Assembly (NCBI RefSeq): GCF_000875975.1
Contig: NZ_BAWW01000025.1
Span: forward strand, 1 to 58,613
Direction of reading: 5' to 3'
DNA: 58,613 nt
DNA from: Parachlamydia acanthamoebae
GTDB lineage: Bacteria; Chlamydiota; Chlamydiia; Chlamydiales; Parachlamydiaceae
Shown here: piece after piece, positions 19,349-25,278 of the stretch
Position numbering within the stretch: the stretch's first letter is position 1
Layout: each line of letters begins with the position of its first letter
Notes under the pieces: model-generated
Told to the model about the DNA's origin: nothing
Databases searched by the model: none
What the model saw: the letters and a program-made list of their open reading frames with translations, nothing else
Position numbers and translations under genes: made by a program

Positions 19349-20203
19349 TCAGGCTTTCGAAGACCCTTTGCCTTCATCTGCAACCGGCTCTTCTACTTGT
19401 TCAAGATAAAACATTAACCAATCTAAAAATGTGGAGAAAGCCATATTGTCCATGCTTGATAAAGGACCTGTTATATCGGAGATCGAATTGGTCATTCCAG
19501 AATAATACACATTGCCCATTTCATTTTCCGGATACCATTCCGTCCAAAAACATTGATAAAAAGGCATTCCAAAAGATTCATAAAAAGGAATTAAAGATTT
19601 GGGATCGACATAAGTATCCTTACCACTCACGAGCGTTTCTTCATGCTGAGAAAGCATATTTTGAAAGTCTTCATAGAGACTGGATAACTTTTGTGAATGC
19701 GCAATCCCCGTACAATCACTGGATTTATTAAATCCATCATGAATGCGCAAAAAAGCTAAATAGTCAGCTGGTAATGCTTGGTTGGGGAAAATTTTTTGAA
19801 GCTCAGCCAAATTAGCTTCAGAAATACCACTTCGCCCCCGATAAAAACCACTATTTCCACGCAAACTATACACCAGATGAGCCTCATAGGGGTCATCGTA
19901 TTTTTTTTGCACAATGAAAACACCTATATCATCCAACATTCCAAAAAACTTCATCAAGAATTTGTCTAGACCTGGATGATAAGGGAGCATGGATAGCCAG
20001 TAATCTCGGATAAATTCAATTCGATCAGCAGGCTTTAAACGAGACAGCTCAAACCAACCTTTGCAAAGTTCCGAGCATTGTTCAGAAATAACTTCCCAAG
20101 TCGCATTCGGATTATCATGCAATGCAACAACAGAATGAAAGCACCCCTTTGGTGATTCATCGTCAGACGTCGTCGAATAAAATTCTCGAATGTGATGATC
20201 CAT
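19349..20203 (-). CDS. SMI1/KNR4 family protein
   Basis: A 284-aa soluble protein. The central part (ISEANLAELQKIF...LPADYLAFLRIHDGFNKSS) matches the SMI1/KNR4 core, where LP..Y..FL...DG is conserved. The rest is not recognised. In bacteria this superfamily includes immunity proteins against contact-dependent toxins and other protein-interaction modules, and similar genes are common in Legionella and chlamydial symbionts. No toxin gene adjoins it. It lies 107 bp after the PAS-protein gene on the same strand. Confidence 0.6.
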   Translation of the reverse strand: MDHHIREFYSTTSDDESPKGCFHSVVALHDNPNATWEVISEQCSELCKGWFELSRLKPADRIEFIRDYWLSMLPYHPGLDKFLMKFFGMLDDIGVFIVQKKYDDPYEAHLVYSLRGNSGFYRGRSGISEANLAELQKIFPNQALPADYLAFLRIHDGFNKSSDCTGIAHSQKLSSLYEDFQNMLSQHEETLVSGKDTYVDPKSLIPFYESFGMPFYQCFWTEWYPENEMGNVYYSGMTNSISDITGPLSSMDNMAFSTFLDWLMFYLEQVEEPVADEGKGSSKA

Positions 20204-20310: not shown

Positions 20311-21516
20311 CTAGGGATAGAAGACGGCAATCACGTGATTGCAAAAAATCCCGGAAGGAATTAAACCCAAGTGACAATTCAATAAAAGATTTTCACCAAA
20401 CTTAGTCTTCATAACCAAACGAATTTTGGCTTCATGAGAAGAGGATAATCCTTGAATCTGAGTTTTCCATTCCGCCAATCCATCCTGAACAATTTCAGGA
20501 AAATCCTGCAGGAATTTATCTGAACTCCAGCCTAATAAATGTCGGATTTGATGATTTGCATACAATAGCTTATGCTCTTTTTTGGAATAGACTGCCAACG
20601 CTGCCATATTTTCACTTCCTAGGCTATCTCCTAAACGACGCAAATCTAAAGCATTACTATTCACGGGGAGATCACGAAATAAAGAGGACTGAGAAGAAAA
20701 ATGATTCACACCAGTAATATTTTGAACGATTTCAATACATTGCTTTAATTGATGAGAAGCGCCCTCTGCATGGCTAATTTTTGTATCATCATGAAAAGCA
20801 AGTGCACCTCTTTCCAATTCTTCTTGAATCGAATAAATCGCCGGTGAATTTTTAACAGGCTCAATAGATTTAAAATCTTTGGGTGAAAACACTTCCGACT
20901 TGAATTGGGGATGTTCTGAAAATTTTAAAAGCGTTTGCAATTCATAGTTGCGATCATTCACTTGGCTCTCTAAATCTTCAATGCGATCGTCTTTACTTTG
21001 AAGAACAATTTTTTGCTCATGTGTTTCTTGGCGTAATGTATGAATGAGCTGTTCACGTTCTTCGATTTGCTGCTCCATTTCCAGTCGAAATTCAGCAAAA
21101 TCTTCTGAAATTTGAACCAATCTCTTAATCTCTTCTTCCCTATTTTGATACTCAGCTAGCTCTGTATCTTTTTGAGAAAGTTCTCTAGCAAGAAGCTCTT
21201 CTTGCTCAGTTAGCTCCTCTACTTTCTGCTTGAGAATCGCAAAATCTTCTGCCGGAGTTTCGGGAATGAGAGCCTTCTGGCTTTCGATATAGATATTTTC
21301 AAAATAGAGCTTTAAAGCGTCTTCCCACCCTTTCAAAACAAACAAAAGGAATAAAGATCCAGCAAGGCTTAAAAAAAGGCCAACAGATAAAAAAGTCCAA
21401 CTTTTTGAAAGAGGAAGATGTTGCAAACTCATAAAAGTCAAAACAAACAAGGGGATCAGATATAGTGCAACCGCGAGGCCAATGAGTTGGTGACGATGTT
21501 TTAGCAAATCTTTCAT
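20311..21516 (-). CDS. membrane-anchored coiled-coil PAS-domain protein
   Basis: A 401-aa protein: two hydrophobic helices at about 10-30 and 38-62, a long Glu/Gln/Lys coiled coil (about 90-205), a linker, and a C-terminal PAS-like domain (about 300-401; MAALAVYSKKEHKLLYANHQIRHLLGWS...). It has no kinase, cyclase or methyl-accepting domain, so it may signal by contact. It follows the partner-switching phosphatase gene by 80 bp on the same strand and is a plausible sensor or regulator for it. The ligand is unknown. Confidence 0.65.
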   Translation of the reverse strand: MKDLLKHRHQLIGLAVALYLIPLFVLTFMSLQHLPLSKSWTFLSVGLFLSLAGSLFLLFVLKGWEDALKLYFENIYIESQKALIPETPAEDFAILKQKVEELTEQEELLARELSQKDTELAEYQNREEEIKRLVQISEDFAEFRLEMEQQIEEREQLIHTLRQETHEQKIVLQSKDDRIEDLESQVNDRNYELQTLLKFSEHPQFKSEVFSPKDFKSIEPVKNSPAIYSIQEELERGALAFHDDTKISHAEGASHQLKQCIEIVQNITGVNHFSSQSSLFRDLPVNSNALDLRRLGDSLGSENMAALAVYSKKEHKLLYANHQIRHLLGWSSDKFLQDFPEIVQDGLAEWKTQIQGLSSSHEAKIRLVMKTKFGENLLLNCHLGLIPSGIFCNHVIAVFYP

Positions 21517-21596: not shown

Positions 21597-23630
21597 CTAT
21601 TTAAAAGACTTTATAGCTTCTTCATTTTTATTAAAAATTTCAAAAATCTTGTGCAAAGAAACAACTTCCAGTGTAGCCCGTGTTGACCGATTCAAGCAAG
21701 AAAGTTTGAGATCCCCCCCCTGCTTATTCAATGCTTTCAATATCGAAAGAAAACTTCCAAGCCCTGAGCTATCCACAAATTGTAATCGGTGTAAATCAAA
21801 CACCACTTTGGGATTTTCATAGGTTGAAATGAGCTCAATCACTTGCTGTTTAAAATCTGCTGCATTTTTAGTATCTAAGTTTTCAATTTCAGGAGTAATG
21901 ATTAAAACATTATCTTGTAGCGTATGTGAAAGGTTCATTTGCCCCTCTGTTGTTAAATAACGTTTAAAAATGTGGAGGTGATTCCAGCCCTGTTCCGTTT
22001 GCTTTGGAATATAGGTTAACTGATCAGTGAGAACACGAATCATATACCATCCAAATCCAGATTCCTTATCTCCTGAAAGAGAAGGCTCACTGATTTGAGA
22101 AGGATCAATGGCAGTTCCACGATCAGAAACCTCAAATCTCACTCCATCAGATTCTAAAAAGCCTTCAATCACAATCGATTCCTTTCCTTTTTGCAAAGAA
22201 TCTTGAAAAGCGTGCTGTATTAAATTACTAAACACTTCGTTCATAACAAGCTGCAATTGGCTAGATAATCTTTCATGATCTCCTGGTGCCCGCTTGCAAA
22301 TCCGCCCCACAAAATCCCTTACAGCCTGTAATTGGGAAAGATCACATGAAAATTTTGCTGACCCAACATTTTTGAGGCTTTGTGGAATTAATTCTTTGAT
22401 TTTGACAATAACCCATGTCAAATCATCAGCAAAGCTCTTTTTTTGTGTAAAATCGAGAAGCGCATGGATAATTTGATTCAGAATCTGCTCTGATGGTAAT
22501 TCCAAGGCATTTTGGATAATTTGCTTTAATCGTGAAATTCCGAAAAATTCACCGGTTGGAGAACGCGCTTCGATTACCCCGTCCGAATAGAACAGAAAAA
22601 CATCTCCCACGCTCAAATCAATTTTTTCCACGTCATCTTGATCAAATTCAATCACTCCGATAGGTGGGCCTCGCTGATCAAATTCTTTAATTTGTTTAGT
22701 CATGGATCGGCAATAAAGAAATGGAGGAAAGCCCGTATTTACGAAATTAAACGTTTGCGCATTCAAATCAAACCGCCCATAAAACAAGCTAACAAAATAT
22801 TCTAAACCATTTAGCTGCCGACCAATTGTCTTATCGACCTGCTCAAGAATTTCATGCGGGGAAAAAAGATCTTCTTTCCAGATAGCTGTTTTTTTATAGA
22901 TTTGCACATGGCTTAAGGGCATCGCAAAACGGGTGATTAAAGTTTTGACTGTCAATCCCAATAAGGCTGCGGGAACACCTTTTCCCATGGTATCTCCCAA
23001 AGCAAAATCAAAAATTTTTTCGGCTGGGAGGTAAAATTCCAAAAAATCTCCATCAATTTCTGAAGAAGGCAAAGCTAAGGCGGCAATTTCTACACCAGGA
23101 ATGTTATTGGGGATAGGGCTTGTTAACATTTCTTGATGAATAGCAGCACTCAACAATAGCTCATTCTTAAATGTCGTATAATTTCTTTTGAGTTCCTCCC
23201 GTTGCTCGAAAACAAGTCGACCTAATCGGATATTTTCGCTTTGAGTTTTGTATTGTTTCAACAAAACCTGAAGGGCTGTCAGTAAAGTCTCTTCGCTCCA
23301 AGGGCGAGACATCCACAAAATAGCATGCTGCTCATCTTGTATTTGCTCACAAACACACGTGTCCTGCTGTTCATGCAATAGCAAATAGGCCGTTGTTGAA
23401 GAATGCTGGGATGTTTGTTGATAAATGGTAACGGCATTGACATCTGGCAAAGAATGTTCGCAAATTAATACTGCCACTGGATGCTGTTGAAAAAGTTTAA
23501 TCCCTTCAAGTTCACTTTCTGCTACTAAGACGGCATATCCATATTTAGCCAAAATTTTCATTAAACCTTTAAAAATTAAAGGTTCTTTGGTAATTAAAAG
23601 AACATGTTCGGCTTCTAATTTTTTTTCCAT
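21597..23630 (-). CDS. fused receiver, RsbU-type PP2C phosphatase, RsbW-type kinase and STAS protein
   Basis: A 677-aa four-domain partner-switching protein. Residues 5-125 are a receiver-like domain. About 165-395 is a SpoIIE/PP2C phosphatase with metal Asp residues in DGDFLEFY, GDTMGKG, YSDGVIEARS and ADDLTW. About 430-555 is a GHKL ATPase of the RsbW type with MNEVFSNLIQHAF (N box), SDRGTAIDP and GFGWYMIRVL. Residues 565-677 are a STAS domain with the acceptor Ser region VDSSGLG (S621/S622). The receiver lacks normal residues: Glu58 replaces the phospho-acceptor Asp, Thr14/Lys15 replace the acidic pair, and Arg109 replaces the conserved Lys. Divergent from rpoN; probably in one unit with the PAS protein. 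Confidence 0.85.
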   Translation of the reverse strand: MEKKLEAEHVLLITKEPLIFKGLMKILAKYGYAVLVAESELEGIKLFQQHPVAVLICEHSLPDVNAVTIYQQTSQHSSTTAYLLLHEQQDTCVCEQIQDEQHAILWMSRPWSEETLLTALQVLLKQYKTQSENIRLGRLVFEQREELKRNYTTFKNELLLSAAIHQEMLTSPIPNNIPGVEIAALALPSSEIDGDFLEFYLPAEKIFDFALGDTMGKGVPAALLGLTVKTLITRFAMPLSHVQIYKKTAIWKEDLFSPHEILEQVDKTIGRQLNGLEYFVSLFYGRFDLNAQTFNFVNTGFPPFLYCRSMTKQIKEFDQRGPPIGVIEFDQDDVEKIDLSVGDVFLFYSDGVIEARSPTGEFFGISRLKQIIQNALELPSEQILNQIIHALLDFTQKKSFADDLTWVIVKIKELIPQSLKNVGSAKFSCDLSQLQAVRDFVGRICKRAPGDHERLSSQLQLVMNEVFSNLIQHAFQDSLQKGKESIVIEGFLESDGVRFEVSDRGTAIDPSQISEPSLSGDKESGFGWYMIRVLTDQLTYIPKQTEQGWNHLHIFKRYLTTEGQMNLSHTLQDNVLIITPEIENLDTKNAADFKQQVIELISTYENPKVVFDLHRLQFVDSSGLGSFLSILKALNKQGGDLKLSCLNRSTRATLEVVSLHKIFEIFNKNEEAIKSFK

Positions 23631-23775
23631 GAAAATCTTAGTTCAATGAATTTCGCAGGAATTTTTAAATTTTTTTCAATATCTTCTAGATTGGTAAATT
23701 TTTTTTTCTTGTCAAGACTCCTTAGATATGAAATAGAAATAATTTGTAGCTTATTTTTAAAGGAGCCTTTTTTCC

Positions 23776-25278
23776 ATGGTTTATCCTCTATCGCTCCAAC
23801 AACAAGCGAAAATGCAGCAATCTCTCAAGCAAACCCAGCGCATGATCATGTCTCCGCAAATGCAGCAGGCTATTCATTTGCTGCAAATGCCTCTCATGGA
23901 GTTAGTTGATCGTATTGAAACAGAACTCGAACAAAATCCGATTTTGGAATCTATCCAAGATTACCCCGAGGAAGATCAAGATCTGACCCGCTTGGAAGAG
24001 GACAATTCTGAAGCTGATCTTGACGAAGAACAAACCCCTGAGAAAGAATTACTTTTTGATGAACAAGATTTTGAAATTCTGAAGCAAATCGATGAAGATT
24101 TTCGGGATCATTTTGCGGAAAGCGGAAATTATTACACAAAACGCACAGAAGAAGAAGAAAAGCAAAAAAACTTCCAATTAAATTCCATCCAAGCACATGT
24201 TTCATTATTTGAACATTTGATGACTATCGCTCAAGAAACCTTTGCCAATCCTAAAGACATTCAAATAGCAGAATCGATCATTGGGAATTTTGATGAACGA
24301 GGATTTCTTCAAACATCTTTAACTGAAATTGCTGTGTTAAATGATTTTTCAGTGAAAGAACTTCAACGCGTTTTAAAAACCATCCAAACATTCGATCCTT
24401 TTGGTGTCGGAGCAAGCGACTTACAAGAATCTTTTCTCATTCAGCTTCGCTGTCAAAAAAAAGAACATAGCCTAGCGTATAAAATCATTGAAGATTGCTA
24501 TGAAGATCTCCTCCATAATCGACTACCCATCATAAAAAAACATTTAAATTGTTCAATCGAAGATATTCAGAAGGCTATCGATAAAGATATTTCTAAATTG
24601 GATTTACACCCCGGTGCGTCTTTTTCAGGTGAGATCGCTCAAACGATTGTTCCTGATGCGATGATTAAAGAAGAAGATGGCAAGCTGGATATCGTGGTCA
24701 CCTCAGATTTTCTGCCACCCATTCGCCTCAATAAGCGCTACATGAAAATGCTTGAGGACGAAAGCCTATCTGATGCTACAAGAGATTTTATTCGACAGCG
24801 CGTGATTTCTGCGAAGTGGCTGCTACGAAATATTCATCATAGAAATACAACCATCGATCGGATCGCCCAATTCTTGGCCCAGCAACAACATGCCTTTTTC
24901 CAAAATCCGGATGGGCAACTGGTCCCTCTCACCATGAAAACGGTGGCAGATAATTTAGGCTTGCATGAATCAACAGTGGCACGTGCTGTAGCGGGGAAAT
25001 ATGTGGAAACCCCACGCGGACTCCTCCCCTTTCGATTCTTTTTTACTAATGCTTACATGACCGATGAAGGTTCCGATATTTCGGCAGAAACAGTCCGAGA
25101 GGCAATAAAAGATATCATTGACAAGGAGGACAAATCTAAACCTTTGTCAGATCATAAAATCTCTGATCTCCTAGAGATTAAAGGCATTCATTGCGCACGA
25201 CGCACAGTTTCTAAATATCGCGCAGAGCTAAACCTCGGAAATACCCAGCAAAGACGCTTATTTCGAAAATCGTGTTAA
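23776..25278 (+). CDS. rpoN: RNA polymerase sigma-54 factor
   Basis: A 500-aa sigma-54. Region I is Gln/Leu-rich and opens with LSLQQQAKMQQSLKQTQRM, where activator contact occurs. Region II is acidic (about 60-95). Region III has the core-binding part and the HTH. The C-terminus has the RpoN box ARRTVSKYRAELNL for -24 recognition. Start ATG 23776 lies behind AAAGGAG. The 3' end overlaps the convergent membrane-protein gene by 21 bp. Chlamydiae encode one sigma-54 that acts with the CtcB/CtcC pair. Confidence 0.95.
   Translation: MVYPLSLQQQAKMQQSLKQTQRMIMSPQMQQAIHLLQMPLMELVDRIETELEQNPILESIQDYPEEDQDLTRLEEDNSEADLDEEQTPEKELLFDEQDFEILKQIDEDFRDHFAESGNYYTKRTEEEEKQKNFQLNSIQAHVSLFEHLMTIAQETFANPKDIQIAESIIGNFDERGFLQTSLTEIAVLNDFSVKELQRVLKTIQTFDPFGVGASDLQESFLIQLRCQKKEHSLAYKIIEDCYEDLLHNRLPIIKKHLNCSIEDIQKAIDKDISKLDLHPGASFSGEIAQTIVPDAMIKEEDGKLDIVVTSDFLPPIRLNKRYMKMLEDESLSDATRDFIRQRVISAKWLLRNIHHRNTTIDRIAQFLAQQQHAFFQNPDGQLVPLTMKTVADNLGLHESTVARAVAGKYVETPRGLLPFRFFFTNAYMTDEGSDISAETVREAIKDIIDKEDKSKPLSDHKISDLLEIKGIHCARRTVSKYRAELNLGNTQQRRLFRKSC

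Follow-up and report, generated by a model that had tools for sequence, protein, structure and literature searches.

One gene of Parachlamydia acanthamoebae carries a receiver, a PP2C phosphatase, an RsbW-type kinase and a STAS substrate in a single minus-strand frame of 677 aa, with a conserved start codon at the STAS boundary. Judged from comparative sequence data, it is probably a fused HsbR/HsbA-like operon in which internal initiation was retained, so that both the full chain and a free STAS protein would be made. The gene lies in a stretch of 58,613 nucleotides (contig NZ_BAWW01000025.1, positions 1 to 58,613), here called the window. Its features are collected in Table 1.

Table 1. Positions of the fused gene, its modules and its neighbors in the window.
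Feature	Position	Strand	Evidence
Fused partner-switching gene, 677 aa	21597..23630	-	open frame, Pfam profiles, AlphaFold model
Degenerate receiver, residues 8-125; Glu58 codon 23457-23459	23256..23609	-	Pfam, alignment, AlphaFold model
Phosphatase domain of the PP2C/SpoIIE type with intact metal Asp, residues 176-415	22386..23105	-	Pfam, residue check
HATPase_c_2 kinase domain of the RsbW type with intact N-box, residues 424-555	21966..22361	-	Pfam, residue check
STAS module, 113 aa from Met565 and stop codon; Ser622 codon 21765-21767; also predicted separate small protein	21597..21938	-	
Internal ATG (Met565), predicted free-STAS start; ATG in 18/18 fused orthologues	21936..21938	-	
AGAGGGG, Shine-Dalgarno-like stretch in frame, before the internal ATG	21942..21948	-	
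Divergent intergenic region common to the fused gene and rpoN; no sigma-54-type motif found	23631..23775	.	
rpoN (sigma-54), conserved neighbor	23776..25278	+	
UPF0242 and PAS_12 membrane protein, downstream neighbor	20311..21516	-	Pfam

Four modules in one frame and a decayed receiver

The frame is uninterrupted, with no internal stop codon. In the Pfam search the SpoIIE/PP2C profile matched residues 209-411 (E 2.9e-37, 128.9 bits against a cut-off of 25), HATPase_c_2 residues 428-542 (E 9e-15, 55.2 bits against 27.4) and STAS residues 572-672 (E 1.5e-17, 63.7 bits against 22.6), while Response_reg at residues 10-120 reached 29.3 bits, just under its cut-off of 30.2. All four folds, and a long helix at residues 113-169, appeared in the AlphaFold model of the fused protein (mean pLDDT 84), for which Foldseek gave Pseudomonas aeruginosa RssB and Mycobacterium tuberculosis Rv1364c (3ke6) as the best structural matches. 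The fusion of the four modules in one chain, as stated in the original prediction, was therefore borne out by the frame, the profile search and the model. An assembly artefact was ruled out, since the fusion is present in 18 genomes.

The same prediction held that the PP2C domain, the kinase N box and the STAS serine are intact, and a check by position agreed with it. The PP2C metal ligands (Asp195, Asp213, Asp350, Asp402/403), the kinase motifs (N-box E465 and N469, G1 D503/G505, G2 G525/G527) and the STAS DSSG motif with Ser621/Ser622 were all in place, and no loss of catalytic residues was seen in the phosphatase or the ATPase.

The receiver was different. In the alignment, residue 58 at the position of the phospho-Asp is Glu, the acidic pair DD is KE, the Thr/Ser is His and the conserved Lys is Arg109. 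The predicted Glu58 and the loss of the other key residues were thus confirmed, and a normal phospho-switch is not possible. A pseudo-receiver as a feature of the system, on the other hand, was not upheld, because ten orthologues (nine fused and one split) hold a canonical receiver with all key residues. The receiver of the window gene is 19% identical to these canonical copies, which are 42% identical among themselves. The other domains have changed at near-normal rates: the corresponding values are 41 vs 47% for PP2C and 44 vs 42% for the HATPase, and STAS is also near normal. Since most full-length orthologues are canonical and the identity of the receiver alone collapses, the alignments indicate that the pseudo-receiver is a secondary decay and not a design; a receiver replaced by design was rejected on the same two grounds. 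With the receiver dead, the enzyme of this species would be constitutive or otherwise controlled. The kinase/phosphatase balance would then be fixed, or set by something besides receiver phosphorylation, for example by binding to the receiver fold or to the helix.

A conserved putative internal start at the STAS boundary

Among 649 columns, only the one of Met565, at the STAS boundary, holds ATG in every one of the 18 fused genes; the next-best column reaches 0.89 and lies within STAS. Most fused copies are just 31-53% identical to that of the window. A strong Shine-Dalgarno (SD) stretch (E <= -5.5 kcal/mol) precedes Met565 in 16 of the 18 genes, with weaker ones in G104 and G033, compared with 4.3 expected from the residue composition and with 5% of other internal ATGs reaching this energy. 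By mean SD energy the Met565 column ranks 6th of 649; those ranked higher are STAS columns without Met or the column next to Met565. These energies assume the standard anti-SD; the 16S 3' end was not found in the draft assembly. In the window gene the internal SD has -6.0 kcal/mol, compared with -0.4 at the gene's own start, and it beats about 90% of the gene starts in the window, in a genome where SD use looks modest (median -1.9). A conserved internal start codon with an SD, by which a two-product in-frame gene is recognized, was thus found here.

The residues that encode the SD vary between copies (LTTEGQ, IKEKTS, KMEGES, CLGDEI), while the nucleotide feature is kept. Against a shuffle of synonymous codons, the SD was not significant (Fisher p 0.32), and p values from these related fused sequences are too small. 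The SD is partly explained by acidic and Gly residues, and therefore the case rests on the invariant ATG, its position and the natural splits. Residues 561-564 form a low-confidence linker in the AlphaFold model and are probably disordered, so that a structural reason for Met565 is not evident.

The natural splits occur at the same point. In the sister species (G001, L042:8562-9358), a 5' remnant of the receiver and the final ~24 nt of the kinase are followed by STAS, forming a deletion scar, and the sole start of this STAS gene is the same SD/ATG as the internal one of the fused genes. Its product is 91% identical to the window STAS with dN 0.046 and dS 1.80, i.e., under strong purifying selection, and is probably annotated as a second RsbV. 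In another genome (G076) the frame is broken exactly at the internal-start point, where AGGAGGA and the TAA stop of the kinase occur and STAS starts with TTG. The original prediction noted a Met-led STAS segment, as if a separate gene had been joined; the segment is real and conserved, and the outgroup holds two genes. It also named a separate start and stop inside the frame as the sign of distinct proteins: a conserved start is there, and an internal stop is absent from the window gene.

It is unlikely that the fusion makes a single product which acts in cis like Rv1364c, Met565 being a leftover of the former STAS start that plays a minor structural part. The frame is open across the junction, the kinase-STAS fusion persists in 18 genomes of several families, the SD failed the synonymous-codon test and Rv1364c auto-phosphorylates and auto-dephosphorylates its own STAS domain (PMC7693655); however, a leftover Met within a disordered linker would not be expected to stay ATG in 18/18 copies, most of them 31-53% identical and with variable neighboring residues, and the STAS-only and split descendants start exactly at its site.

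Under the two-product reading, the kinase of the full chain would phosphorylate Ser622 of STAS and the PP2C domain would dephosphorylate it, both in cis. The free STAS protein from Met565 would be a diffusible substrate and the output, acted on in trans. Action of the kinase or PP2C domain on STAS was previously reported for Rv1364c (PMC7693655), HsbR (PMC6482189) and SypE (PMC4517449). If true, one gene sets the enzyme:substrate ratio by internal initiation, which is a testable design.

Origin of the fusion and loss of its modules

The locus was found in 24 of the 234 Chlamydiota genomes searched, and in 18 of these, from several families, kinase and STAS share one frame. The locus and rpoN are divergent in 22/22 contigs containing both and directly adjacent in 20; in the window they are 145 bp apart. 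The predicted adjacency to rpoN is thus a conserved trait. The proposed link to the downstream membrane PAS protein (UPF0242) was rejected, because among the loci examined this gene adjoins only those of the window's genus. Farther downstream on the same strand, an SMI1/KNR4 (SUKH-1) family protein is encoded at 19349-20203.

Relatives outside the phylum were found with an alignment query, whereas a single-protein query of named genomes gave none. The closest belong to Desulfobacterales and Bryobacterales and hold two adjacent genes, PP2C-kinase and then STAS. The first gene of the Desulfobacterales type is REC-PP2C-kinase; one of its four copies (L086) is without a downstream STAS. In L089 the ribosome-binding site of STAS lies within the final codons of the kinase gene. 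The first gene of Bryobacterales has a longer N-terminal region that was not identified as a receiver. By eye, the N-terminus of one such gene (L090:3221-5777) is GAF-like, followed by PP2C and kinase with a separate STAS gene next, so that this operon is related but has a different sensor.

With these two-gene relatives as the root of a tree, the chlamydial copies formed one clade (100/100). STAS-only copies were nested three times in genera that hold fused copies (g1, g2, g29). The deeper forks of this locus tree are open (15 of 26), which leaves the count of losses approximate; the three within-genus losses are secure. We infer that the ancestor was a two-gene HsbR/HsbA-like operon, REC-PP2C-kinase and then STAS, in which loss of the kinase stop codon would have given one fusion. 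The old ribosome-binding site and ATG of the STAS gene would have stayed within the fused frame, and the upstream modules would later have been lost repeatedly. G025, G107 and G108 have neither the receiver nor the metal residues of PP2C, the locus of G006 is kinase and STAS only, and G001, G011, G021, G034 and G106 hold STAS only. This series at one locus, from intact through receiver-decayed, phosphatase-decayed and kinase-only to STAS-only, is a rare record of the dismantling of a circuit and suggests that STAS is its most important part. Annotating the STAS-only copies as ordinary second RsbV genes would hide their origin.

The window copy itself may be heading for loss, with the receiver gone, the rest a decaying regulator and STAS the sole needed product. 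We consider this rather doubtful. The collapse of receiver identity to 19% agrees with it, as do the sister species that deleted all except STAS and the relatives with REC loss, PP2C decay or STAS only. However, the near-normal rates of the window PP2C and HATPase domains and their intact catalytic residues argue against it.

Known systems and the candidate output

To call the gene an undescribed regulatory system, as the original prediction did, is too strong, because Rv1364c is already a known PP2C-kinase-STAS chain and HsbR/HsbA and CrsR/CrsA are known REC-PP2C-kinase proteins with a STAS partner. Rv1364c is likewise a single sensor-PP2C-kinase-STAS chain. There, however, a PAS domain serves as the sensor, whereas the N-terminal module of the window protein has a receiver fold. 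We know of no internal STAS start in Rv1364c. HsbR-HsbA of P. aeruginosa and CrsR-CrsA of Shewanella oneidensis share with the window gene the REC-PP2C-kinase order, the STAS substrate and the opposing activities (PMC6482189), and their layout is that of the two-gene operons of the nearest outside relatives. In both, however, STAS is a separate gene, as in the outgroup and G076, while in the window it is in the same frame; moreover, the window receiver is without the phospho-Asp, whereas in those systems phosphorylation of the receiver selects the kinase or the phosphatase mode. SypE-SypA of Vibrio fischeri also couples a receiver-controlled kinase/phosphatase to a STAS protein and is linked to a polysaccharide locus (PMC4517449), but SypE has a central receiver and a separate STAS, and the window locus itself has no adjoining glycan genes.

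The chlamydial RsbU/RsbW/RsbV switch also consists of PP2C, RsbW-type kinase and STAS, but the window locus is separate from it and fused. A 2024 pan-phylum survey lists RsbU/W/V and records that Parachlamydia sp. C2 has a second RsbV; a word search of its text did not find the fusion. Phage endolysins include in-frame genes with two products, the full-length protein and its C-terminal domain, the latter made from an internal start (PMC9430671, PMC12203907); these contain no signalling circuit, and their short product was shown by experiment, while that of the window is predicted from sequence. In the open-access literature searched, we found no chlamydial REC-PP2C-kinase-STAS fusion, no internal STAS start in such a fusion and no WecG-STAS protein. 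With this locus the amoeba-associated Chlamydiota gain a second partner switch that had been overlooked, with a possible tie to surface glycan synthesis.

Because the locus adjoins glycan genes in relatives, including WecG-STAS, its output may be a surface glycan and not a sigma factor. A glycan output, which would resemble SypE/SypA, thus competes seriously with a sigma-factor output. The target would be a WecG/TagA glycosyltransferase with two STAS domains lacking the phosphorylatable Ser, which the kinase/STAS pair would control by STAS-kinase partner exchange. Such proteins are encoded in the window genome (C66:190033-191571, L081) and at L169-L174 and L176; the WecG copy of G101 is short and without the STAS part. 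This output is tentative, though the best placed of those considered. Sugar-phosphate transferase, nucleotidyltransferase and WecG-STAS genes lie downstream of the fusion in several families, and WecG-STAS occurs in 10 of the 234 genomes, nine of which have the locus (Fisher p 2.5e-9, without correction for phylogeny). The tenth (G008) kept the gene at the rpoN locus and lost the fusion. SypE/SypA, moreover, controls a polysaccharide phenotype (PMC4517449). On the other hand, WecG-STAS was undetected in over half of the genomes that have the locus, and in the window genome the glycan genes are elsewhere, WecG-STAS at C66 and the sugar-phosphate transferase at C8. The combined proposal is speculative and as a whole improbable: one gene would give a complete kinase/phosphatase/substrate chain that acts in cis and also, through initiation at the conserved internal site, a free STAS messenger aimed at this glycosyltransferase and not at a sigma factor.

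Somewhat less probable than the glycan output is a sigma-factor output, in which free STAS would titrate the separate RsbW (C28) and free sigma-66, or would act on the neighboring sigma-54. RsbW and RsbV also exist as stand-alone proteins in the genome, so that crosstalk with the classical switch is possible, and RsbW of Chlamydia trachomatis binds sigma-66 (PMC11619594); in 22/22 contigs rpoN adjoins the locus or lies near it. However, the region between rpoN and the fusion showed no sigma-54 -24/-12-like motif in 21 loci, the locus is absent from many rpoN-bearing relatives, and the remaining neighborhood consists of glycan genes in several families.

Two further proteins of the window genome were noted by eye: a second receiver-PP2C protein of 401 aa beside a CheB-like gene (C8, L002:1483-2688), and a protein Ser/Thr kinase-like domain fused to a PP2C-like domain (C66, L003:1432-3036).
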